From contig DATKWZ010000037.1 in assembly GCA_035529315.1 (NCBI GenBank), positions 1 to 64,000 of the forward strand: a DNA stretch of 64,000 nucleotides, written 5' to 3'. Made by a program: the position numbers and the translations under genes. This document shows, in pieces, positions 18,258 to 30,290 of this stretch. The notes below the pieces were generated by a model. It saw nothing but the letters and a program-made list of their open reading frames with translations, searched no databases and was not told where the DNA came from. The first letter of the stretch is position 1; every line of letters begins with the position of its first letter. Origin of the DNA: Anaerolineae bacterium (GTDB lineage Bacteria > Desulfobacterota > Desulfobacteria > Desulfobacterales > ETH-SRB1).

Positions 18258-19126
18258 GGCCTTTGGAGCAGTTTCTGGCATACGGCAAAACCATTAAATT
18301 CAGCCATACTATTTTTGCCCTTCCTTTTGCCCTTTCAGCAGTAGTACTTGCTCACCGGCATTATCCAATCAGCCCGACACATCTCTTCTGGATTCTTATC
18401 GCCATGGTCGGGGCGCGCTCCTCTGCAATGGGTTTTAACAGGATTGCAGATGCAAGGTTTGACGCAAAAAATCCGCGCACATCAAAACGTGAAATACCTT
18501 TAGGCAGGCTTTCTTTATTCTCCGCAAAGATGTTTGTAATTTTATTTTCCCTTATTTTTATTTTTGCCGCTGCAATGCTCGGCAAGATATGCCTTTATCT
18601 TTCCTTTCCCGTGCTTGCTTTGATGTTTTCCTATTCCTACACAAAAAGGTTTACCTGGCTTTCCCATTTTTATCTTGGATTTGTGATATCGCTTGCGCCC
18701 ACAGGAGCATGGATAGCTCTTACCAACACCTTTTCATTGCCCATCACATTGCTTTCTCTGACCCTTTTGACCTATATCGCAGGCTTTGACATCCTTTATG
18801 GTTGTCAGGACACAGGCTTTGATACAAAAGAAGGGCTCTTTTCCATACCCGCCAGGTTCGGTATTCATAAAGCACTTTTAATCTCTTCCATTACTCATGT
18901 TTTTTCTTTTTTGTTTTTATTTTTGATCTTTATTGCCTTTGATATGAAGATAATATATCTAATAACTATTATAGTAATCGCCTTGCTGCTTATTATTGAG
19001 CACAAACTTGTTAAACCCCGTGATCTCAGCCATGTTAATATCGCTTTTTTCCATATTAACAGCGCAATTTCAATAATCCTGTTTGTCGGCATATTAGCTG
19101 ACGAGCTGGTCAGGCAATGGATATGA
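18254..19126 (+). CDS. UbiA-family prenyltransferase (MqnP-like)
   Basis: An integral-membrane aromatic prenyltransferase of 290 aa with about eight hydrophobic segments. The two prenyl-diphosphate/Mg motifs are present: NRIADARFDAKN and DILYGCQDTGFDTKEG. The match to the branch linked to the futalosine menaquinone pathway, and the neighbouring ubiX, point to prenylation of 1,4-dihydroxy-6-naphthoate. It overlaps the genes on both sides, so it sits in a tight operon. Confidence 0.9.
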   Translation: MRPLEQFLAYGKTIKFSHTIFALPFALSAVVLAHRHYPISPTHLFWILIAMVGARSSAMGFNRIADARFDAKNPRTSKREIPLGRLSLFSAKMFVILFSLIFIFAAAMLGKICLYLSFPVLALMFSYSYTKRFTWLSHFYLGFVISLAPTGAWIALTNTFSLPITLLSLTLLTYIAGFDILYGCQDTGFDTKEGLFSIPARFGIHKALLISSITHVFSFLFLFLIFIAFDMKIIYLITIIVIALLLIIEHKLVKPRDLSHVNIAFFHINSAISIILFVGILADELVRQWI

Positions 19127-19716
19127 ACAAAAAAATTATAGTGGCGATATGCGGAGCTTCAGGATCGATTTACGGCATCAGGCTGTTAAAGGCGCTTTTG
19201 AATAAGCCTGTAAATATATACTTAATCATTTCAAATGCCGGCTATAAAGTACTTGAGCATGAAACCGGTTACACAGGTGGATCGTTTTCATCTTTTTTAA
19301 AGGATAAAGGGGTTGTCGTTCATAATGATGCGGATTTAAATATCTATGAGCAGGATGATTTTTTTGCTCCACCTGCAAGCGGGTCATTCAGAAATGACGG
19401 CATGGTTATAGCTCCCTGCTCAATGAAAACACTTGCAGCAATTGCTTCCGGCATGGCGGACAACCTCATCCACAGGGCGGCAGATGTCAGCCTGAAGGAA
19501 AAGCGGCCACTTATCCTGCTCCCAAGAGAGACCCCTTTAAGCATTATTCATTTAAAGAACATGTACGTGGCAGCCAAGGCAGGCGCTACTATAATGCCCC
19601 CCTCCCCTTCATTTTATTCCAATCCCAAAAATATTTCCGACCTTGTAGATTCTGTAATTGCAAGGGTTCTCGACCACCTGAAAATTGAGCATGACCTTGT
19701 TAAGCAGTGGGGGTAA
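19117..19716 (+). CDS. ubiX: Flavin prenyltransferase UbiX
   Basis: It makes prenylated FMN, the cofactor of UbiD-type decarboxylases (199 aa). The FMN-binding motif GASGSIYGIRLL, the serine/histidine region SNAGYKVLEHET and the conserved PRETPLSIIHLKNM are all present. It overlaps the ubiA end; either ATG at 19117 or at 19123 could be used. The likely client enzyme is the UbiD at 28500-30290. Confidence 0.93.
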   Translation: MDMNKKIIVAICGASGSIYGIRLLKALLNKPVNIYLIISNAGYKVLEHETGYTGGSFSSFLKDKGVVVHNDADLNIYEQDDFFAPPASGSFRNDGMVIAPCSMKTLAAIASGMADNLIHRAADVSLKEKRPLILLPRETPLSIIHLKNMYVAAKAGATIMPPSPSFYSNPKNISDLVDSVIARVLDHLKIEHDLVKQWG

Positions 19717-20014
19717 GAAACTTAACATGAATATAAAATGATAGCCCTATAGAATCCCCAAACAGTTCACTAAATAATCGTTGATTTAACGATTAAACAG
19801 AGCTATCCGTTACCGAACGGGAATAACTTGTCGTTTTCCTGCGTGAAACATCAAAATATTCCCGTTCGGTAATTTATCTTAAATTACAAGTGAGCGGAGC
19901 ATAAATATTCTCTATCGGTAATATTCTATGGTAAAGGGAAAGATTGAAGCTCCCCGCCGCAAGCAGCGGGGACTGCGCTCGTTTTTGCGATTCAAGGGTT
20001 TGGAGATATAGAGT
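19717..20014. other. Boundary region of the accessory island
   Basis: No gene is seen. It contains a perfect 16-bp inverted repeat (19810-19825 and 19857-19872) and a GC-rich REP-like hairpin tccccgc/gcgggga (19951-19972). Related hairpins recur near 22834-22857 and 33632-33655. Confidence 0.5.
19810..19872. repeat. 16-bp inverted repeat ttaccgaacgggaata
   Basis: The arms at 19810-19825 and 19857-19872 are exact complements with a 31-base spacer. The form is like a paired operator of a helix-turn-helix antitoxin, but no such gene lies next to it. It may be a left-over control region. Confidence 0.7.
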
Positions 20015-20587
20015 ATGATCGAGGGAAAAGCACTTATCCCAATCGAACGAATTGAAAACGTTATTATCCAAATACGAGATCATAAAGTTATTATTGCTAC
20101 GGACTTAGCTAAAATCTATGGTGTGACTACAAGAAAATTGAATCAAGCCATAAAGCGGAACATTGATCGATTCCCTCCTGATTTCTTGTTTCAACTGACT
20201 CAAAAAGAAAAAGAAGAGGTGATCACAATTTGTGACCACCTCGAAAATCTTAAATATTCCCCATACCTACCATTTGCTTTTACAGAACATGGCGCCATTA
20301 TGGCAGCCTCGGTTTTAAATTCCAAACGAGCTATTCATGTAAGTGTATATGTTGTCAGAGCATTTGTAAAATTGCGGGAAATGGTATCAACCCATAAAGA
20401 ACTAGCGCTCAAGCTTTTGGAAATGGAGCAACGATTAGAAAGTCATGATAAGCAGATTCAGGCCGTTTTGGAGGCGATCCAGCAACTTATGACACTGCCT
20501 GCCAAACCACACAAGAAGATTGGATTTATAGTAAAGGAAAGGCAAGCTACCTATGGCCGTAGAGGCATAAAACGCAAAAAAGGCTAA
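20015..20587 (+). CDS. ORF6N-domain DNA-binding protein
   Basis: A 190-aa protein. Its first 90 residues match the ORF6N domain of phage and plasmid origin (VIIATDLAKIYGVTTRKLNQ; FAFTEHGAIMAASVL). A coiled-coil-like segment (about 120-155) and a basic tail follow. GGAG lies upstream. Such proteins are common in mobile regions and have no established enzymatic function. Its presence marks the start of the accessory island. Confidence 0.88.
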   Translation: MIEGKALIPIERIENVIIQIRDHKVIIATDLAKIYGVTTRKLNQAIKRNIDRFPPDFLFQLTQKEKEEVITICDHLENLKYSPYLPFAFTEHGAIMAASVLNSKRAIHVSVYVVRAFVKLREMVSTHKELALKLLEMEQRLESHDKQIQAVLEAIQQLMTLPAKPHKKIGFIVKERQATYGRRGIKRKKG

Positions 20588-20696
20588 TCATGCTTGATGA
20601 TGGAACAAAAAAAGCGGAGGCAAGGCCGCCCCACCCAAAAACCCTTATACGGCTATTGACGGTGAAAAAAATCGCAAAGGAAAACGATAGTTACTT

Positions 20697-20725
20697 CTTG
20701 ACGATATAAACTTATAAACTGAGGA
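20697..20725 (+). repeat. 29-bp direct repeat, left of the DUF488 module
   Basis: It matches 22897-22925 at 28 of 29 positions in the same orientation, exactly 2200 bases apart. A diverged partial copy lies at about 3450-3476. Confidence 0.8.
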
Positions 20726-20759
20726 ATGTCCCATATATCCCTGTTGTTGAGGTAATGAT

Positions 20760-21662
20760 ATGATCAAGTTGCATTATCCTAAATTTTATCGGCAACGCCT
20801 TGTTTTGATTTTGTTAGAAAAGGCTGGAGGCTGCCTGTCAAAAATGGATTTTCAGAAGCTATTGTTTTTATTGCATCAGAAGACAGGAATTTTGTACTAT
20901 GATTTTATTCCTTACCACTATGGCTCTTATTCGTTCCAGGCAGCATCAGACATTGAAACTTTGCAAGCAACAGGCTGGCTTAAATCAGAAGAGAAAAATA
21001 TTACTTTACTAAAACAACTCCCTCAATCAAAAGGTTTAAAGGGATATGAAATAGATGAGATTAGTCGATTTATGCAAAGCTATAAGGATTATCGGGGCCG
21101 CAGGCTGCTGCGTTATACTTATCAATATTATCCTTATTATGCGATCAGGAGCAAAATAGCTCATGATATTGTGGATAAAGAAACTCATAAACGTATCCAG
21201 GCTGAAAGGAGCCGGACGATAAAACAGGAGTCTGTGCTTTATACAATTGGCTATGAAGGATCAACCTTTGAGGCTTATATTAACAAACTGATAGCCAACG
21301 ATATACGACTGTTGTGCGATGTGCGAAAAAATCCGCTGAGTCGCAAATTCGGTTTTTCCAAAGGGATACTATCCAGCGTATTACCAAAATTAGGTGTTGA
21401 GTACTTGCATGTCCCAAAGTTAGGAATTGTCTCGCAAAAACGAAAACAGCTCGAAACAAAGGATGATTACATCCGCCTGTTTGCAGAATACCGGGAATCT
21501 CTTCCTGAAAAAGCAAGCTGTCTGCAAGATTTGACAGTGCTGATGGAGCGTTATCAAAGGATAGCGCTGACCTGCTTTGAAAGGCATTCGTATTTTTGTC
21601 ATCGTCATTGTATCAGTGATTATCTGGAGGCTGAGAAAGACATAGCGGTTGTCCATTTATGA
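20760..21662 (+). CDS. DUF488-domain protein with N-terminal winged-helix-like domain
   Basis: A 300-aa protein. Residues about 1-120 resemble the SocA/Panacea-type helical, winged domain (KLLFLLHQKTG; FIPYHYGSYSF). Residues about 160-295 are DUF488, with TIGYEGSTFEAYI, the conserved DVRKNPLSRKFGF and a C-terminal His/Cys motif CFERHSYFCHRHC. The function of DUF488 is not established. The stop overlaps the next gene by four bases (ATGA), so the two are made together. A near-identical 29-bp repeat lies on each side of the pair. A defence or nucleic-acid role is inferred only from context. Confidence 0.8.
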   Translation: MIKLHYPKFYRQRLVLILLEKAGGCLSKMDFQKLLFLLHQKTGILYYDFIPYHYGSYSFQAASDIETLQATGWLKSEEKNITLLKQLPQSKGLKGYEIDEISRFMQSYKDYRGRRLLRYTYQYYPYYAIRSKIAHDIVDKETHKRIQAERSRTIKQESVLYTIGYEGSTFEAYINKLIANDIRLLCDVRKNPLSRKFGFSKGILSSVLPKLGVEYLHVPKLGIVSQKRKQLETKDDYIRLFAEYRESLPEKASCLQDLTVLMERYQRIALTCFERHSYFCHRHCISDYLEAEKDIAVVHL

Positions 21663-22489
21663 TCGAAAAACGAAAAATATTCATAACAGTCAAGACATAT
21701 CCAACCCTGTCAAGAAAATATGATGAAATTGTTTGTACAGCAGGAATCTTGGATGATGGAAGCTGGGCGCGTATATATCCACTACCGTTCCGCAAGCTGG
21801 ATTACGAAAAGCGTTATAGAAAATATCAGTGGATGGAAATCCAGTTACAAAAAAATACGAGTGATCCCAGACCAGAAAGCTATAAAGTATGTGATATTAC
21901 ACAAGTCAGGCTTATCGGAAAACCAGTTGGGACAGCAATGGGATGGAAGGAGAGAAAACGTATTATTTTTGATCAAAATCCAATCTACACTGATTTGACC
22001 GGTTTAATCGAACAGGCACAAAGAAATAAGCTTTCCCTGGCCATTTTCAAACCCGAGGAAATTATTGAGGTTGTTGTTGCGGAAACACAACACGAATGGA
22101 GTGAAGAAAAGTTAACCCTCCTGAAAGCAAAAGCAAAGCAGCTTTCTCTTTTTCAGACTGAAGAGGAAGTGAAAAGAGAATTTTCAATAGTTGATAAACT
22201 TCCCTACGATTTTTTTTATCGTTTCAGGGACAAAAAGGGCAGAGAAGCCAAACTCATAATAAAAGATTGGGAGATTGGCATGCTTTACTGGAATTGTCTT
22301 AAAAATTCCAGCGGTGATGAACAAGAGGCTGTATACAAAGTTAAAGAAAAATATTTTAATTTGTTTAGCAAAAAAGATATTTACTTGTTTTTAGGAACAA
22401 CAAAACAATTTCATGGATGGGCTAAAAATCCATTTGTAATTATTGGAGTTTTTTATCCACCGCTTGAATCACAGCTTTCATTCTTTTAG
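21659..22489 (+). CDS. DUF488 partner protein of unknown function
   Basis: A 276-aa soluble protein that I recognise only as a recurring partner of DUF488 genes. It is rich in aromatic and basic residues, with beta-like segments near the N-terminus (FITVKTYPTLS; WARIYPLPFRKLDYE). A conserved-looking C-terminal block follows (LFLGTTKQFHGW; FVIIGVFYPP). The RIYPLPF region could be a nucleic-acid-binding beta domain, but this is a guess. Overlap with the DUF488 gene shows an obligate two-gene unit. Confidence 0.72.
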   Translation: MIEKRKIFITVKTYPTLSRKYDEIVCTAGILDDGSWARIYPLPFRKLDYEKRYRKYQWMEIQLQKNTSDPRPESYKVCDITQVRLIGKPVGTAMGWKERKRIIFDQNPIYTDLTGLIEQAQRNKLSLAIFKPEEIIEVVVAETQHEWSEEKLTLLKAKAKQLSLFQTEEEVKREFSIVDKLPYDFFYRFRDKKGREAKLIIKDWEIGMLYWNCLKNSSGDEQEAVYKVKEKYFNLFSKKDIYLFLGTTKQFHGWAKNPFVIIGVFYPPLESQLSFF

Positions 22490-22620
22490 CAACACAAAGC
22501 ACTGTTTCCTAATATCAACCCAAAGTTGAAACGTCGAGAATATTACCCACAATAACTCAAATTGTATATTGATGGATTGACAGAAATGATAGCGGTAATT
22601 TAGAAAAAAAACATAACAAA

Positions 22621-22649
22621 TTGACTTGTATATTCAATTAATATATTTT
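22621..22649 (+). promoter_or_regulatory. Sigma-70-like promoter of a possible small transcript
   Basis: TTGACT (22621-22626), a 17-base spacer and TATTTT (22644-22649) are close to consensus. The next downstream element is a terminator about 110 bases later. Confidence 0.55.
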
Positions 22650-22699
22650 GTTATAGATTAATTTCGGTCTGTTTTTTGAACCTCAAGCAGGAGGATCAG

Positions 22700-22813
22700 G
22701 TGACCAAGAATTACAAAAAAATAAAGCCCCATTTCTTCAGCCATATGAAGGATGGGGTTTTTTGTTTTACAACCCTGGATCTGAACCGTAATATCGAGCG
22801 AATACAAAAATAG
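22700..22813 (+). CDS. Possible 37-aa small protein
   Basis: A GTG at 22700 follows a near-perfect AGGAGG with five-base spacing and opens a 37-codon frame. The product starts MTKNYKKIKPHFF and is basic, with no recognisable family. The terminator hairpin at 22723-22767 lies inside the frame, so the transcript may instead be a non-coding RNA or an attenuated leader. Confidence 0.3.
   Translation: MTKNYKKIKPHFFSHMKDGVFCFTTLDLNRNIERIQK
22723..22767 (+). terminator. Rho-independent terminator
   Basis: The stem aaagccccat/atggggtttttt has an inner extension cttca/tgaag and is followed by a T-rich run. It could end the DUF488 operon or the short transcript from 22621. Confidence 0.75.
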
Positions 22814-22896
22814 CAAACTTCCTTACGGTCGCAGCTCCCCGCTGATTGGCGGGGAAGCTTCAAATCATGAACTAAAAAGGATTTAGCTGTTCTATC

Positions 22897-22925
22897 CTTG
22901 ACGATACAAACTTATAAACTGAGGA
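22897..22925 (+). repeat. 29-bp direct repeat, right of the DUF488 module
   Basis: This is the right partner of 20697-20725; one base differs. Together they bracket the DUF488 pair and the possible small transcript. Confidence 0.8.
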
Positions 22926-23067
22926 GCATTATAAACAGTCCAAGCGAAATATTTCCGAAACTTAAACCTAATATTCAAATATGTGGAAGTATTTTCCAAA
23001 TATATAGTCCGATATCATGGGAAAAATTTACACTTATTAACACTGACAAGCTGACTGCTCGCGATCA

Positions 23068-23109
23068 GCATAACGCCGGCGGATGCTTCGCCATCCGCCG
23101 GCGTTATGC
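23068..23109. repeat. Perfect 18-bp hairpin with GCATAAC/GTTATGC ends
   Basis: The arms at 23068-23085 and 23092-23109 are exact complements with a six-base loop. The outer bases resemble the R-box pair of integron attC sites. At 42 bases and without bulges it is not a typical attC, so it could be a plain stable hairpin. Confidence 0.65.
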
Positions 23110-23322
23110 AGCACAATAAAGAGATAGAACTTGGACGTGCCATGTATGTGAGACCCAATTCGACACTGTTGGGAGAACATATTAGGGGCAATTCTTGATT
23201 ATTGACAAATGGAATTTTGCAGTAACCTCATGGGCATTGGAAAAGAAATAAAGTTAATTGAGATAGTGCATTTGTCAAGATTAAAGACCCTATCGGGTTG
23301 TACTAATCAGGTGGCATAAAAA

Positions 23323-24330
23323 ATGCGAATTACGAAATCTCAGCTTGTAAATAAACCAGGGAAATGGGGTCGCCATATCGTCATACTTGGGGCTGGGGCG
23401 AGTGTCGCAGCGTTTCCTTATGGTGACGCTAATGGGAAAAGACTGCCGACGATGAATAACTTAATTGAGATGCTTGGTCTCGAACCGGTATTAGAACGGG
23501 GAGGAGTTAAGAATAAACGTCGCAACTTTGAAGATATTTACAGTGAGTTGTACGAAAATAATCCTGGGTCACCATTTCTTAAAGAAATTGAGAAGATCAT
23601 ATATACTTATTTTGACAGCCTAAAACTCCCAGAATTACCAACCGTGTATGACCGTTTATTGATGTCCCTTAGGCCAAAGGATATTGTTGCAACCTTTAAC
23701 TGGGATCCATTCCTCTTTGATGCGTGGAATCGGAATAAGGATAAAGTTCCAGCTCCGGAGATTCTTCACCTTCACGGCAACGTCCGCTTAGCATATTGCC
23801 CAGAGCACCCTGTTTATGGTGGACACGGCATGTATTGTCCAAAATGTGATAGAGAGCTTATCCCCTCTCAGCTACTCTACCCCGTCGCAATGAAGAACTA
23901 TGCCAACGAACCCTTTGTCAAGACAGAATGGGAAGTTCTAAAGAAATATCTGCGTCAGGCGAAGACCCTAACAATTTTTGGCTATGGAGCACCGACTACG
24001 GATAAAGAAGCAGTTGATATTATGAATAGTGCATGGGACAAGGACAATCGATTAATCGAACGAACGGAGATCATTGATAAAAAGGACAAAGAAGTTCTGT
24101 GGACGCAGTGGGAGCCTTTTATAATAAGAACTTACCTTGATTGCCCTAAGGACTTTTATCAATCACGGATAGCAAACTTTCCTAGAAGAACTTGTGAAGC
24201 GTTATTAGCTCAAACAGCTTATGGTCAATGGGTTGAGAACAACCCCTTCCCGTTGGATGCTAATTTTGATGAACTATTGTCTTGGGTAAAGCCATTAGTT
24301 GAGGCAGAGCGTGTATTGGATGCTGTCTGA
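23323..24330 (+). CDS. SIR2-like NAD-binding protein
   Basis: A 335-aa protein with the SIR2 superfamily signature: the NAD-binding GAGAS near the N-terminus, TFNWDPFLFDAW, the catalytic-type HLHGN, and a possible zinc pair (YCPKCDR). A later Rossmann element is TIFGYGAPTTD. SIR2-like proteins of this kind in bacteria are often NAD-consuming effectors of anti-phage systems. No partner such as Thoeris or DSR genes is adjacent, so a stand-alone defence role is inference. It lies between two hairpins that resemble cassette recombination sites. Confidence 0.8.
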   Translation: MRITKSQLVNKPGKWGRHIVILGAGASVAAFPYGDANGKRLPTMNNLIEMLGLEPVLERGGVKNKRRNFEDIYSELYENNPGSPFLKEIEKIIYTYFDSLKLPELPTVYDRLLMSLRPKDIVATFNWDPFLFDAWNRNKDKVPAPEILHLHGNVRLAYCPEHPVYGGHGMYCPKCDRELIPSQLLYPVAMKNYANEPFVKTEWEVLKKYLRQAKTLTIFGYGAPTTDKEAVDIMNSAWDKDNRLIERTEIIDKKDKEVLWTQWEPFIIRTYLDCPKDFYQSRIANFPRRTCEALLAQTAYGQWVENNPFPLDANFDELLSWVKPLVEAERVLDAV

Positions 24331-24387
24331 AAATTTATAGAGGCTTTTAGTTCATAACTATGGCTATGCGATAATTTTATGTAAATA

Positions 24388-24457
24388 CATAACCCAACGC
24401 ACTCGGACGCCAAACAGCTTCGCCGTTCGGCGCCGATGGTTTCAAACGTTAGGAGCA
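24388..24457 (+). repeat. attC-like imperfect hairpin
   Basis: The left arm 24403-24418 and right arm 24422-24436 pair well with one extrahelical A at 24407. The outer boxes cataac (24388-24393) and gttagg (24448-24453) pair apart from one mismatch. Bulged bases and R-boxes are features of integron attC sites. No integrase gene is in the window. Confidence 0.45.
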
Positions 24458-24462
24458 AGAAT

Positions 24463-24912
24463 ATGGATTTTCTGAATAGAATTCCTAATTGGCTGAGATG
24501 GATTTTATCGTTGCCTACTGCTCTTTTAGCACTGTTTATTTCTTATCCACTGATCATATTATTAAACAAAATAACGATGATTGGTATTGGGGAAGGCTTT
24601 TTAACAGACCTTGTAATATTGATATTGGCTAACCTATGGAGTGCTGCTGCTTTCATATGGGTCGGAGCTATAATAGCACCACGTCATAATTTCATTGTTT
24701 CGATCATTTTCGCAGTATTCTATAGCTTTATACTTGGAGCATCGTTCTTTGCAAAGTTTTCACTCGGGGCTAAGTCGAGTGTTACTTGGCTGGAAATGAC
24801 TATAACGGTAATAGCTGGATTAGTCGCGGCAGTCGGAGTGGTGTATCATTTTTATGAAAATGAGAAAAAGGATGAAATTCACTCTGTAAGTTTTAAAAAT
24901 GAATTATATTAG
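24463..24912 (+). CDS. Four-helix membrane protein of unknown function
   Basis: A 149-aa protein with about four hydrophobic segments (residues 10-32, 40-68, 75-98, 112-132) and a short charged C-terminal tail. It matches no family I know. The start at 24463 is set by AGGAG directly after the attC-like site, the usual position of a gene in an integron cassette. A GGCTCCTAAC motif follows the stop (about 24919-24928) and complements the gttaggagc before the start. Confidence 0.65.
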   Translation: MDFLNRIPNWLRWILSLPTALLALFISYPLIILLNKITMIGIGEGFLTDLVILILANLWSAAAFIWVGAIIAPRHNFIVSIIFAVFYSFILGASFFAKFSLGAKSSVTWLEMTITVIAGLVAAVGVVYHFYENEKKDEIHSVSFKNELY

Positions 24913-25260
24913 ATAGCTGGCTCCTAACCTGTTTGAGTAAAGTGGGGGACAATCCTATATCCTCCTGTCAAGAGCAAAATAAAAAGAATATAAAATCAAT
25001 ATGTTACTATACATTATAAATTTTGGGCGTATCGGTATTGTAAGCTCTCAAAGAGCTTTTAAACAAATGTGTTGGCGAGTTTCTCACCTATAAATAAACC
25101 TGTTGCCTTATCGTTACTTCTATCCGGTGTGGATCTTTTTCCACCTATAATCCCTTATCCAGGCTATAATGTTCGGTGAGAGGCCCTTTATTGTCCCTTC
25201 CGAGGTCATATGCCTCTACGTCCATGCTCGGGCTCTCTCGCCATATCAAAACTTTATTTA
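24913..25260. other. Intergenic region ahead of the toxin-antitoxin pair
   Basis: I see no intact gene. On the minus strand parts of about 25080-25250 read as broken coding sequence with several stops, but no family could be named. Confidence 0.35.
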
Positions 25261-25289
25261 TTGACTTTCACCCACTATATGACTATAAT
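25261..25289 (+). promoter_or_regulatory. Promoter of the phd-relE operon
   Basis: TTGACT (25261-25266), a 17-base spacer and a perfect TATAAT (25284-25289) lie 28 bases before the antitoxin start. An imperfect palindrome tgac-N10-gtca (about 25280-25297) overlaps the -10 and could be the antitoxin's autoregulatory operator. Confidence 0.75.
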
Positions 25290-25317
25290 TCTGGTCAACT
25301 AAAAAAGAGGTGTTTTT

Positions 25318-25572
25318 ATGCAAACATTATCATTGTCCGAAGTTAAGATGAAGCTTAGCGAGCTTGTTGAAAAAGTCCACTCAACCGATGAGGAGATTGT
25401 AATTACAAAAAACGGCAGACCCTCAGCCGTACTGGTCAGCTCTGATGAATTTGAAAGCTGGAAAGAAACTCTTGAAATCATTTCCGACAAAGACATGATG
25501 GACGAAATTAAGCAGGGGCTTGCGGCACTCGAGAAGAAAACCAGGCTTTATACGCTTGAGGAGTTATTTTAG
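25318..25572 (+). CDS. Antitoxin, Phd/YefM family
   Basis: An 84-aa antitoxin. The N-terminal DNA-binding Phd fold is seen in LSEVKMKLSELVEKV and VITKNGRPSAVLVS. The C-terminal acidic helix would wrap the toxin. GAGGTG lies upstream. It precedes a RelE-like toxin gene in the usual order and probably represses its own strong promoter. Confidence 0.92.
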   Translation: MQTLSLSEVKMKLSELVEKVHSTDEEIVITKNGRPSAVLVSSDEFESWKETLEIISDKDMMDEIKQGLAALEKKTRLYTLEELF

Positions 25573-25615
25573 CATCAAACAGCCATTCTCGGACAGCTCG
25601 TTAGGAGCAAAACAT

Positions 25616-25918
25616 ATGCCGGCGACTTATAAGTTTAGAATGCCGGATAAGACAGCGGATCTTATCCGGCATATACATCCTGAAATAAAGAAAAAAATTA
25701 AGTCATCTCTTGAAATTATTTTATCAGATCCCCAGGCCGGCAAATCATTGAAGGGTGAACCGACAGGTTTAAAAAGTTTCAGGACAGGTCGATTCAGGAT
25801 TATTTATAAGATATCTTCAAAACAGATTATAGATATTGTGGCTGTTGGCCCGCGAAGTGTAATATATGGAATTACTTACAGAATTTTAAAAAAACAAACA
25901 GATCAGAAAAAAGAATAG
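25616..25918 (+). CDS. Toxin, RelE/ParE family
   Basis: A 100-aa toxin. It has the compact RelE-like pattern with LKGEPTGLKSFRTGRFRIIY and a terminal VAVGPRSVIY strand. The basic residues expected for a ribosome-dependent mRNA endonuclease are present, but the family also contains gyrase inhibitors. The start at 25616 follows TTAGGAG; the longer frame from 25520 overlaps the antitoxin gene. Confidence 0.88.
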   Translation: MPATYKFRMPDKTADLIRHIHPEIKKKIKSSLEIILSDPQAGKSLKGEPTGLKSFRTGRFRIIYKISSKQIIDIVAVGPRSVIYGITYRILKKQTDQKKE

Positions 25919-25938
25919 AGCGGGTAGGTCTCAGAGAT

Positions 25939-28230
25939 TTATTTAAGTCCGCTTTTTATTAATGCTTCTGCTAACGGGTTATTAAACGGCTTATTCCTGC
26001 CGCTTACCTTATTTTCCTGCTTATCCTTTGGTTTCGGGTTACGGTTTTCAGCCTTTTTTAAGCCCGGATTTTCAATTGCAATCCCTGACTTATCTGCCCG
26101 CGATTTCATTGTGAGAGAAATCCTGTTTCTGGCAAGGTCAACTTCAAGCACGGTTACCATTACCTTTTGCTGAACCTTTACAATATCCGCTGGATTTTTT
26201 ACAAATCTGTCTGCCATCTGGCTGACATGAACAAGGCCGTCCTGATGCACACCAATATCAACAAAAGCTCCGAAGGCTGTGATATTTGTCACAATTCCAG
26301 GGATTTTCATCCCAGGTCTCAGGTCTTCGATTTTTTCAATACCATCAGCAAATGCGAATGCCTCGAATTTTTCCCTTGGGTCACGTCCTGGTTTTGCCAG
26401 TTCATCAAGGATATCATTTAATGTGGGAATTCCGACTGATTCAGTAACATATTTTGTAACATCAATCTTTTGCCTGATATCAGGTTTTTTTATAATATCA
26501 ACGACTGTTGTCTCAAGGTCTCTTGCCATGGCGTCAACAATATAGTAACTTTCAGGATGCACCGCGCTGGCATCCAGCGGGTTTTCACCGTCAACGATCC
26601 TTAAAAAACCCGCAGACTGTTCAAACGCCTTGGGGCCGAGGCGCGACACTTTTGTCAATTGCTTCTTGGACATGAAGGGGCCGTTCTCCTCACGATATGC
26701 GATAATGTTTTTTGCGATTACGGTGTTCAGGCCTGAAACATAGGTAAGGAGCTGGGCGCTGGCTCTGTTCAGATCAACACCGACACCGTTAACACAACTC
26801 ATAACAACATCGTCAAGGGTCTGTTTCAGTGCCCTCTGATCAACATCATGCTGGTACTGACCAACACCTATTGATTTTGGATCGATTTTTACAAGCTCTG
26901 CGAGAGGATCCATCAAACGTCTTCCGATTGATACAGCTCCTCGCACCGTTAGATCATGATCAGGGAACTCTTCCCTTGCCACGTCAGAAGCGGAATATAT
27001 TGAAGCCCCGCTCTCATTGACCATTATAATCTGCACAGGCTTTGAAAAAGGGACAGCCTTGACAAAGGCTTCTGTTTCTCTGCCTGCTGTACCGTTTCCC
27101 ACAGCTATGACCTCAATATCAAACTTTTCGCACAGGGATTTTATCTTTTCGATTTCTGCAAGAGCCTTTTTTTCAGACATATGGGGATAAACAGTATCAT
27201 AATGAAGCAGTTTGCCCTGCCGGTCAAGACAGACAAGCTTGCACCCGGTTCTGAACCCAGGGTCTATTCCCATGACGCGTTTTGCTCCCAGCGGCGGGGC
27301 AAGCATGAGCTGGCGAAGGTTATCAGCAAAGACTTTTATCGCTTCAGTCTCAGCTCTTTCTTTTGCGTAAAGCCTGGTTTCAGTTTCCATTGAATGGGAA
27401 AGAAGACGCTTGTAGCAGTCCTTTACAGCCAGCTTTACCTGCGCGGAATCATCACCTTCTCCATTAACAAACAGGTTTTCAAGTATAGCTGTTGCTTCCT
27501 CTTCGTCAGGCAGTATGTCAAGATGCAGAAAGTCTTCGCTTTCACCCCGTCTCATGGCCAGCATCCTGTGAGATGGAACGCCTGCAACCGGTTCTTCCAA
27601 GTCAAAATAGTCTCTGAATTTAGCCCCTTTTTCCTCCATGCCTGACGCAACCCGGCTTTTAATCGTAGCTTTTGTGAAAAAAAGGTTTCTCAGCCAGGAC
27701 CTGGCCTTATCATTCTCATTTATGATTTCTGCAATTATGTCTCTGGCCCCGGCCAGGGCATCTTCGACAGACTCAACCCCTTTTTCATGGTCAATGAAAG
27801 ATTCTGCTTCTTTGACCGGATTTGCTCCTTTCTGCTCAAAAATCATCAGTGCCAGAGGTTCAAGCCCTTTTTCCTTTGCTATAATAGCTCTTGTCCGTCG
27901 TTTGGGCTTATAAGGAAGATATATGTCTTCAAGCACGGCCATGGATTCCGCAGCAAGAACCTTTTCCCGAAGTTCATCTGTCATGTGACCGTGTTTTTCA
28001 AGAGATTTGAGGATCGTTTCCTTTCGTTCTTCCAGTTCCCTGAGCTGGTTCAGCCTGTCCCTGACCGCCTTAACAGCGACTTCGTCAAGACTTCCTGTGG
28101 CTTCTTTTCTATAGCGCGAGATAAACGGAATTGTTGCGCCTTCTGATAGAAGAGAAGCTACTGCCTGAATCTGATTATCGGCTATGTTCAGTTCTTTGGC
28201 AATTACGGATATAAATCTATCGTTGTTCAT
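25939..28230 (-). CDS. tex: Transcription accessory protein Tex
   Basis: A 763-aa RNA-binding protein. In order: an N-terminal helical Tex domain (IPFISRYRKEATGSLDE), a YqgF-like RNase H fold (about 320-450, VMGIDPGFRTGCKLV), helix-hairpin-helix units (about 490-560) and a C-terminal S1 domain (about 640-710, MKIPGIVTNITAFGAFVDI). The last 50 residues are basic and low-complexity. Length and domain order are those of canonical Tex. It is transcribed toward the toxin-antitoxin pair. Confidence 0.96.
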   Translation of the reverse strand: MNNDRFISVIAKELNIADNQIQAVASLLSEGATIPFISRYRKEATGSLDEVAVKAVRDRLNQLRELEERKETILKSLEKHGHMTDELREKVLAAESMAVLEDIYLPYKPKRRTRAIIAKEKGLEPLALMIFEQKGANPVKEAESFIDHEKGVESVEDALAGARDIIAEIINENDKARSWLRNLFFTKATIKSRVASGMEEKGAKFRDYFDLEEPVAGVPSHRMLAMRRGESEDFLHLDILPDEEEATAILENLFVNGEGDDSAQVKLAVKDCYKRLLSHSMETETRLYAKERAETEAIKVFADNLRQLMLAPPLGAKRVMGIDPGFRTGCKLVCLDRQGKLLHYDTVYPHMSEKKALAEIEKIKSLCEKFDIEVIAVGNGTAGRETEAFVKAVPFSKPVQIIMVNESGASIYSASDVAREEFPDHDLTVRGAVSIGRRLMDPLAELVKIDPKSIGVGQYQHDVDQRALKQTLDDVVMSCVNGVGVDLNRASAQLLTYVSGLNTVIAKNIIAYREENGPFMSKKQLTKVSRLGPKAFEQSAGFLRIVDGENPLDASAVHPESYYIVDAMARDLETTVVDIIKKPDIRQKIDVTKYVTESVGIPTLNDILDELAKPGRDPREKFEAFAFADGIEKIEDLRPGMKIPGIVTNITAFGAFVDIGVHQDGLVHVSQMADRFVKNPADIVKVQQKVMVTVLEVDLARNRISLTMKSRADKSGIAIENPGLKKAENRNPKPKDKQENKVSGRNKPFNNPLAEALIKSGLK

Positions 28231-28499
28231 AATATCTGTTCCTGATTGTTTTTATATGCCTGAGCTCTTTTTTCCCAGGCGACAAAATATCCACGGGCCT
28301 GGTATTTGTCAAGCCGCTTAATATATGCCAATTACCATATCTCTGCTTTTCTGACGATATGCACATTGCCAGGGCCTGCATTTTTGGCTTCTGTGTAATC
28401 TGCGTAATCTGTGGATTAATATTGATTCTAAATTCAAATTACATTATTTTGCATGTAATTAAATACAACATTAATGAATGATCTCAAAAGGAACCAAAA

Positions 28500-30290
28500 T
28501 TGTATAAAAATTTAAAAGATTTTTTAGATACCCTTGATAAAGCAGGAGAGCTCAAACATATACACGATAAAGTTTCCCCTCATCTTGAAATAAGCAAACT
28601 TACAGACAGGGAATCAAAAAGTCCGGAAGGCGGCAAAGCGCTCTTTTTTGAAAATATTGATGGTTCATCATTTCCGGTTGCCACAAACATATTCGGAAGT
28701 TCCCGCAGGATCTGCATGGCCCTTGGGGTGGATCATCTCGACCGGTTGGGAGAAAGAATAAAAAAATATATTGATCTCAACCCGCCAAAGAGTTTAATGG
28801 GGGCACTGCAAATGCTGCCGATGGCTTTCGGCCTTACAAAATTCTTTCCACGTTCATTCAGGGCATCAACCCCGCCATGCCAGGAAGTAGTGTATAGAAA
28901 TGATGATGTTGATCTTTCAAAGCTCCCTGTTCTCCACTGCTGGCCAAAGGATGCCGGCCCTTTTATTACTCTGCCGATGGTATTTACAAAGAGTTTTGAA
29001 ACCGGAAAACGCAATGTTGGAATGTACAGAATGCAGATCTTTGATAAAAACTCAACAGGAATGCACTGGCACATTCATAAAGATGGCTCGCATTATTTTA
29101 ATGAATATCGCAAGGCCGGTAAAAAAATGCCTGTCGCAGTCGCAATAGGAGCGGACCCTGCCATTATATATTCTGCAACCGCGCCAATGCCGAGAGGAAT
29201 TGACGAAATGCTTCTCGCAGGTTTCATACGAAATAAGCCTGTGACCATGGCAAAGTGCTTAACCGTGGACATGGAAGTGCCGGCTGAAGCTGAATTTGTG
29301 CTCGAGGGGTATGTTGACCCGGATGAACTAAGGCTTGAAGGCCCGTTTGGGGATCATACAGGTTACTATTCTCTTGCCGACGATTATCCGGTATTCCATG
29401 TTACAGCCATAACCCACAGAAAAAATCCTGTTTACAATGCCACTCTTGTTGGACGACCGCCAATGGAAGACTGCTATATGGCAAAGGCAACAGAACGGAT
29501 TTTCCTTCCATTGCTACAGACGGTAATGCCTGAAATATGCGACTACTGGTTCCCATGGGAGGGGGTATTTCATAACATAGTTGTGGTATCCATTGACAAG
29601 GAATATTCGGGACATGCGCAAAAAGTAATAAGCGGGTTATGGGGACAGGGCCAGATGAGCTTTTGCAAGGCAATAGCAATTGTTGATAAAAATATCAGCC
29701 CGCAGAATCCTGAAAGGATAATAAAAGAGATTTTGTCGAGACTCGATATAGCCTCTGATATCACCATTACCAGGGGGGTTTTAGACGTGCTTGATCACTC
29801 ATCCCCTTTTGCCAATTATGGGAACAAGATAGGGATTGACCTTACAGCAAGATTCAAAGGGGAACCGCCGAGAAGCAACAGGCGTTTTTTATCAAAACCC
29901 CCTTCTGAAGCCGGCCTGTCGAATATAATCAAAAGCAGTGTGCCTGGATCTGCTGGATGCAGACACCTGTTTAAGAAGCTTCAGGAAGGCAAAGAGGTTT
30001 TAAACAGGATTCTAACTGTTTCAGTGGAAAAGACCGTTGATAGAGGTGGAAAGGATTTTGCCTCAATTTTATTAGGCCTGAATGCGCTTGATATGTTCAA
30101 TGTTTTTATTCTGTTTGACAGGGAGATCGATCTTAATGACGGCTCCCTTATGTTGTGGAAGGTATTTAACAATGTCGATCCGGGTCGGGATATGATTTTT
30201 CAAAACAATCGTGTGGTAATTGATGCGTGTAAAAAAGGGATTATGGACGGCCATGAAAGGGAGTGGCCGGATGAACTTACTTTTGACTGA
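28500..30290 (+). CDS. UbiD-family prFMN-dependent decarboxylase
   Basis: A 596-aa decarboxylase of the UbiD family, which needs prenylated FMN made by UbiX. The full-length pattern is present, including the central FGDHTGYYSLADDYP and the earlier VAIGADPAIIYSATAP. The start appears to be TTG at 28500 with AAAAGGA upstream; no ATG or GTG fits better. With UbiA- and UbiX-type genes at 18-19.7 kb it likely acts in the futalosine menaquinone route (MqnL-like). Decarboxylation of another aromatic acid cannot be excluded. Confidence 0.9.
   Translation: MYKNLKDFLDTLDKAGELKHIHDKVSPHLEISKLTDRESKSPEGGKALFFENIDGSSFPVATNIFGSSRRICMALGVDHLDRLGERIKKYIDLNPPKSLMGALQMLPMAFGLTKFFPRSFRASTPPCQEVVYRNDDVDLSKLPVLHCWPKDAGPFITLPMVFTKSFETGKRNVGMYRMQIFDKNSTGMHWHIHKDGSHYFNEYRKAGKKMPVAVAIGADPAIIYSATAPMPRGIDEMLLAGFIRNKPVTMAKCLTVDMEVPAEAEFVLEGYVDPDELRLEGPFGDHTGYYSLADDYPVFHVTAITHRKNPVYNATLVGRPPMEDCYMAKATERIFLPLLQTVMPEICDYWFPWEGVFHNIVVVSIDKEYSGHAQKVISGLWGQGQMSFCKAIAIVDKNISPQNPERIIKEILSRLDIASDITITRGVLDVLDHSSPFANYGNKIGIDLTARFKGEPPRSNRRFLSKPPSEAGLSNIIKSSVPGSAGCRHLFKKLQEGKEVLNRILTVSVEKTVDRGGKDFASILLGLNALDMFNVFILFDREIDLNDGSLMLWKVFNNVDPGRDMIFQNNRVVIDACKKGIMDGHEREWPDELTFD

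Follow-up and report, generated by a model that had tools for sequence, protein, structure and literature searches.

The window analysed here is a 64,000-nucleotide stretch of DNA on contig C37 of a 2.2 Mb genome (57 contigs), which its named relatives place in the family of Ca. Desulfaltia / Eth-SRB1 (Desulfobacterota). It carries two genes on the + strand, M19A (20,760 to 21,662, 300 aa) and M19B (21,659 to 22,489, 276 aa), which overlap by four bases (ATGA), as a preliminary description of the locus had reported. The two proteins match the PADLOC models PDC-M19A (E 2e-101) and PDC-M19B (E 2e-109) along almost all of their length, and the genes are adjacent and in order. On these sequence matches we assign the pair to PDC-M19, an entry on the PADLOC list of phage defence candidates; the collection of papers searched gave none on it.

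The DUF488 domain described earlier in the first protein was recovered with Pfam (PF04343, residues 171-289, E 6.6e-22, 78.8 bits against a cut-off of 22.2) and keeps the invariant residues D187, R189, C272, E274 and C280-H281-R282. All 29 M19A homologues matched the "active" DUF488-N3a profile. The N-terminal part, upstream of a DUF488 region spanning residues ~158-300, is interpreted through relatives and fold: SocA_Panacea (PF13274) was matched by 6 of 29 homologues (best E 6.5e-4) and not by the window protein itself, and the AlphaFold model (pLDDT 92.5, pTM 0.89) found its best fold match in the C-terminal domain of DarG from the DarTG complex (E 7.8e-4), with a weaker match to RapZ, although TM-scores of both protein models to solved structures were low (0.24-0.46). 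M19A is thus best described as a predicted SocA/Panacea-like (DarG C-terminal-like) domain fused to an "active" DUF488.

For M19B of the window, a Pfam search that included the dual-OB family DuOB (PF22557) gave 0 families at E≤1, and a sequence search against solved structures found nothing. The DuOB profile was matched by 4 of 30 homologues (best E 3.9e-5), and the confident AlphaFold model (pLDDT 86, pTM 0.84) resembled tandem-OB telomere single-stranded DNA binders (CST, Teb1), again with low TM-scores. It is through its relatives and its predicted fold alone that we class M19B as a putative DuOB protein.

Bacterial proteins that bind the sliding clamp share the consensus QL(S/D)LF, and PCNA binders share Qxx[I/L]xxFF (PMC9690074). 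M19B contains QLSLF at residues 161-165 (22,139 to 22,153, + strand), in a linker modelled with low confidence and thus probably flexible (pLDDT 56-72), and QLSFF at residues 272-276 (22,472 to 22,486, + strand), in a C-terminal tail predicted to be disordered (pLDDT <50). A motif of the QL(S/D)LF type is therefore present in an exposed loop or tail. In 49 dereplicated M19B proteins QxxLF was found in the linker of 39 and within the last 14 residues of 27, against backgrounds of 1% (44-aa window) and 0.3% (C-termini) in 622 neighbouring ORFs; these motifs are short and degenerate, and since the homologues are related the counts are not independent events. A looser pattern gave 41 linker and 32 C-terminal matches, compared with 4.1 and 2.7 after shuffling, with 7 matches in the remaining 10,706 residues of the M19B proteins; the QLSFF tail of the window itself misses this pattern and the tails of homologues pass it. 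The strict QL(S/D)LF form was rarer (9 in the linker, 5 at the C-terminus), and a looser clamp motif was seen in only 1 of 66 DUF488 partners. Viral homologues had been gathered with a pattern (DWE...) that excludes the clamp motif. In the two archaeal members, and only there, the linker site holds a PIP-like box (QATLDQYI, QATLEQYI) in place of QxxLF. Our best-supported new inference from these sequences is that M19B probably docks on the sliding clamp. The motifs in the flexible linker and the C-terminus are new, and the collection of papers searched gave none on clamp motifs in phage defence.

The pair lies in a segment between ubiX (19,117-19,716) and ubiD (28,500-30,290) that spans 19,717 to 28,499. 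A relative (G001) lacks the segment and has ubiD immediately after ubiX; 8.8 kb separate the two genes in the window. Other genomes of the genus have other genes 3' of ubiX, for instance G004, with a HipA-like gene (named by eye) and then a type A repeat (see below). A tex gene, identified by reading the sequence, lies within the segment at 25,939-28,230. Among the neighbours named in the preliminary description, the ORF6N gene (PDC-S05; 20,015 to 20,587, + strand; Pfam E 2.2e-26, PADLOC) stands upstream and the toxin-antitoxin genes, of Phd/YefM and ParE-like type, stand downstream, but the SIR2-like label for the gene at 23,323-24,330 found no support in Pfam, NCBIfam or PADLOC.

The 5' border of the pair points to an origin in a restriction operon. 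In L051 (Eth-SRB1) and L175 (a viral contig) the order is Mod - M19A - M19B - Res, a type III-like restriction-modification (R-M) operon in which Mod carries N6_N4_Mtase and MTase_III, Res carries ResIII and RE_endonuc, and both mod/M19A and M19A/M19B overlap by ATGA. In the window, a type III mod or res was looked for with the pair and what was found is the last codons of mod, VVEVMI plus stop (20,743 to 20,763, + strand), overlapping the start of M19A by ATGA. Mod ends in IVEVTI in both L051 and L175, and in VVEVMI at L050, where a longer mod tail is kept (...HKIMVKIVDIDGVYTSHVVEVMI plus stop); L052 keeps fragments of both mod and res. As just the last codons of mod are left, the window pair is an orphan. 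It is nevertheless intact and, judged from coding-sequence comparison, under purifying selection: dN/dS against L050 was 0.28 for M19A and 0.10 for M19B, and against L051 it was 0.22 for M19A. The M19B gene is broken by a nonsense change in L051 and by a frameshift in L052, and is thus dispensable there.

The pair is bracketed by a 29-bp direct repeat (CTTGACGATAYAAACTTATAAACTGAGGA) at 20,697-20,725 and 22,897-22,925, whose copies are 28/29 identical and lie 2200 bases apart from start to start, as had been stated. Its 27-bp core occurs at 16 sites of the 2.2 Mb genome with ≤3 mismatches, compared with 0 for a reversed-pattern control. This is far beyond chance, yet the same 16 copies mark it as a dispersed family rather than a signature of the DUF488 locus. 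All 7 genomes of the genus carry the core, as do two other genera of the family; the remaining genomes searched within the order gave none. When repeat sites are compared, their homology extends a long way leftward and in most cases breaks off 24-45 bases to the right of the start of the core, and the left flanks of 95 sites fall into several types (A, B, C). At L064 an intact RAYT gene (338 aa) terminates within the core (...ISLSVKRGEKIAKEHQYSLLDDTNL plus stop), which links the terminal repeat with a Y1 transposase gene. The RAYT right end recurs in inverted form (GGGACGTTCTTCACATTATAAGTTG) upstream of that gene, at its left end. The last RAYT codons are recognisable at many other sites (positions -36 to +17). 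From this arrangement we conclude that the repeat is, by its sequence, made up of the 3' codons of a RAYT (Y1) transposon together with its right terminus, present mostly as remnants.

The two window copies differ in type. Copy 1 belongs to a type A remnant (20,661 to 20,733, + strand) with the last codons of a degraded Y1/RAYT gene (...KIAKENxxLLDDINL plus stop) and the right end ...AACTTATAAACTGAGGAATGTCCC, whereas copy 2 follows a hairpin-rich left flank in a type B repeat tail (22,678 to 22,925, + strand), a tail family also found at other loci. The two copies are therefore the ends of two different remnants. The preliminary description had taken the bracketed pair for a mobile defence-type cassette, a reading on which the copies would be attachment or target-duplication sites. 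The copies do flank the pair exactly, and a stretch with one repeat copy, at the right end only, is common to the window and to L050 at another locus (20,733-22,927, 96% identity). Against this, the repeat is a dispersed, family-wide RAYT end that is widespread away from the pair, the left flanks of the two copies differ, the left border of the shared unit in L050 is the longer mod remnant with no repeat copy, and no recombinase is linked to the pair. We regard the cassette reading as largely refuted and very improbable; what stands of it is that the pair is accessory, moves horizontally and is associated with defence. Repeats on both sides of a defence gene pair are thus no sure sign of a cassette, as they can be scars left by transposons.

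An integron reading was suggested by the leftward homology stopping just right of the core and by an IntI-type integrase in the genome. It was dropped, since the RAYT gene ends in the core and a scan for attC sites with RYYYAAC/GTTRRRY boxes found no such pair at either copy. A Xer/dif-type module (11-6-11 XerC/XerD sites) was weighed on the length of the repeat only. By eye, a possible degenerate attC-like sequence follows the 23,323-24,330 gene at 24,388-24,458 (ACCCAAC...CGTTAGGA), which the strict scan did not pick out. Integron-type integrases (IntI-like by sequence reading) were noted at L117 on contig C34 of the same genome (1177-2148) and at L091 in G002 (237-1229), the latter adjoining a repeat copy. 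The first same-strand ORFs to the right of RAYT-end repeats (L009-L021 and L053-L112; 95 sites) include many defence or selfish genes: DUF1016/YhcG (PDC-S02) in 7 of 44, compared with about 1 of 62 control ORFs, and also HsdR, Fic, ORF6N and AAA_21.

The M19 pair was found in 2 of 7 genomes of the genus, at different loci, and a search of 395 genomes of the phylum gave M19B in 9. M19B is also present on 21 plasmids (Rhizobium, Burkholderia, Streptomyces, Sulfolobus and others) and in seven Gordonia phage records, beside an immunity repressor and an integrase. A search of viral contigs with a single M19B protein gave nothing; an alignment search placed M19B on 42 of them. Of 73 M19B ORFs or fragments from these sources (plasmids, Gordonia phages, viral contigs and genomes), 69 have a DUF488 ORF no more than 1.5 kb away, and two of the four exceptions are cut at a contig start. 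The genes either run in the same direction, in which case the DUF488 protein is often long and bears Panacea, or converge, with a DUF488 protein that is short; about half of the family is convergent, with a DUF488 protein that has no Panacea domain. Other DUF488 partners carry antitoxin-like N-terminal domains, an XRE-type HTH in L165 (by eye) and ParB in L217, and in Saccharolobus the protein is a ParB-HTH-DUF488 fusion; an archaeal DUF488-HTH protein of ParB fold binds CTP (PMC12704722). A single island in L169 holds DarT, DarG, a DUF1156-type methyltransferase and, downstream of these, a DUF488-DuOB pair. Judged from these contexts, the two genes form a widespread accessory module of plasmids, prophages and restriction operons. 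We tentatively propose, with somewhat less than even confidence, that PDC-M19 systems make up a cross-domain class of conflict systems and reach replication forks through the clamp (DnaN motifs in bacteria, a PCNA-type PIP box in archaea), and that the N-terminal domains which control DUF488 in them can be exchanged (Panacea, XRE-type HTH, ParB/CTPase).

Taken together, our results suggest a model in which M19B would hold single-stranded DNA with its dual OB fold and dock on the replicative sliding clamp through the linker motif, aided in most relatives by a second, C-terminal motif. M19A would deliver an active DUF488 enzyme to this spot, and its Panacea/DarG-like domain may bind or restrain a partner; about half of the family is convergent and has no Panacea domain on DUF488, so a restraint role cannot be general. 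Replication forks would be where the module acts, with invading replicons such as phages or plasmids as its most plausible targets, a defence role that is suggested by context and by the PADLOC candidate list. An orphaned PDC-M19 pair with a clamp-docked M19B that brings DUF488 to forks, flanked by RAYT scars, is the best overall explanation of the locus, and we consider the chances that it holds in full to be about even. With it, a two-gene defence candidate that had no explanation gains a hypothesis open to test, namely a clamp-guided, fork-targeted system that can be compared with SocAB.

By analogy with Caulobacter, the pair might instead be a toxin-antitoxin system in which M19B poisons replication by occupying the clamp, as SocB does, and M19A is the antitoxin, its Panacea domain neutralising the toxin and DUF488 adding enzymatic reversal like the macrodomain in DarG. 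Panacea is the domain found in antitoxins, SocA among them, and the toxin that SocA counters, SocB, acts on the clamp (PMC8832971, PMC9690074). The DarG fold match, the antitoxin-first, overlapping gene order in the window and the antitoxin-like domains of other DUF488 partners all point the same way, but the convergent half of the family has no fused domain and the invariance of the DUF488 active site hints at a function beyond neutralisation, which makes this reading possible but rather unlikely. Less probable again is that the pair is a type III-like R-M accessory, processing DNA ends beside Mod and Res with the clamp motifs unimportant. It agrees with the Mod-A-B-Res order in L051 and L175, with the remnants in L052 and L050 and with the presence of a methyltransferase or of DarTG beside the pair in L168 and L169; most plasmid and viral-contig homologues have no adjoining Mod or Res, and the strong enrichment of the clamp motifs argues against it. 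We judge it slightly more doubtful still that an R-M operon decayed and left the window copy behind without a function. Here mod is down to six codons and a stop, res is absent, transposon remnants lie on both sides and no convincing sigma-70 promoter was found, the scan giving fewer sites than shuffles, but both ORFs are intact, dN/dS is 0.10-0.28 and every active-site residue of DUF488 is kept.

The orphaned, clamp-docking pair can be placed beside several known systems. PADLOC gives no mechanism for PDC-M19, to which the present locus adds the separation from a Mod-Res operon and the clamp motifs. The flanking repeats resemble RAYT/REP-associated elements (IS200/IS605-like) in that they are made up of 3' codons from a Y1 transposase gene and its right end, but they are mostly truncated remnants and not REPIN-type palindromic pairs. 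Burroughs and Aravind reportedly described, in 2023, DUF488/DuOB conflict systems of a RapZ-C-DUF488-DUF4326 clade, which the window pair resembles in its "active" DUF488-N3a, its putative DuOB partner and the weak RapZ fold match. With DarTG, its neighbour in L169, the pair shares in M19A an enzyme domain joined to a DarG C-terminal-like domain, but it has no DarT-like ADP-ribosyltransferase. The likeness to SocAB, a type VI toxin-antitoxin system, would lie in a Panacea-type domain and a putative clamp-binding partner; the M19 pair differs in the predicted dual-OB fold of M19B and in the enzyme domain of M19A.
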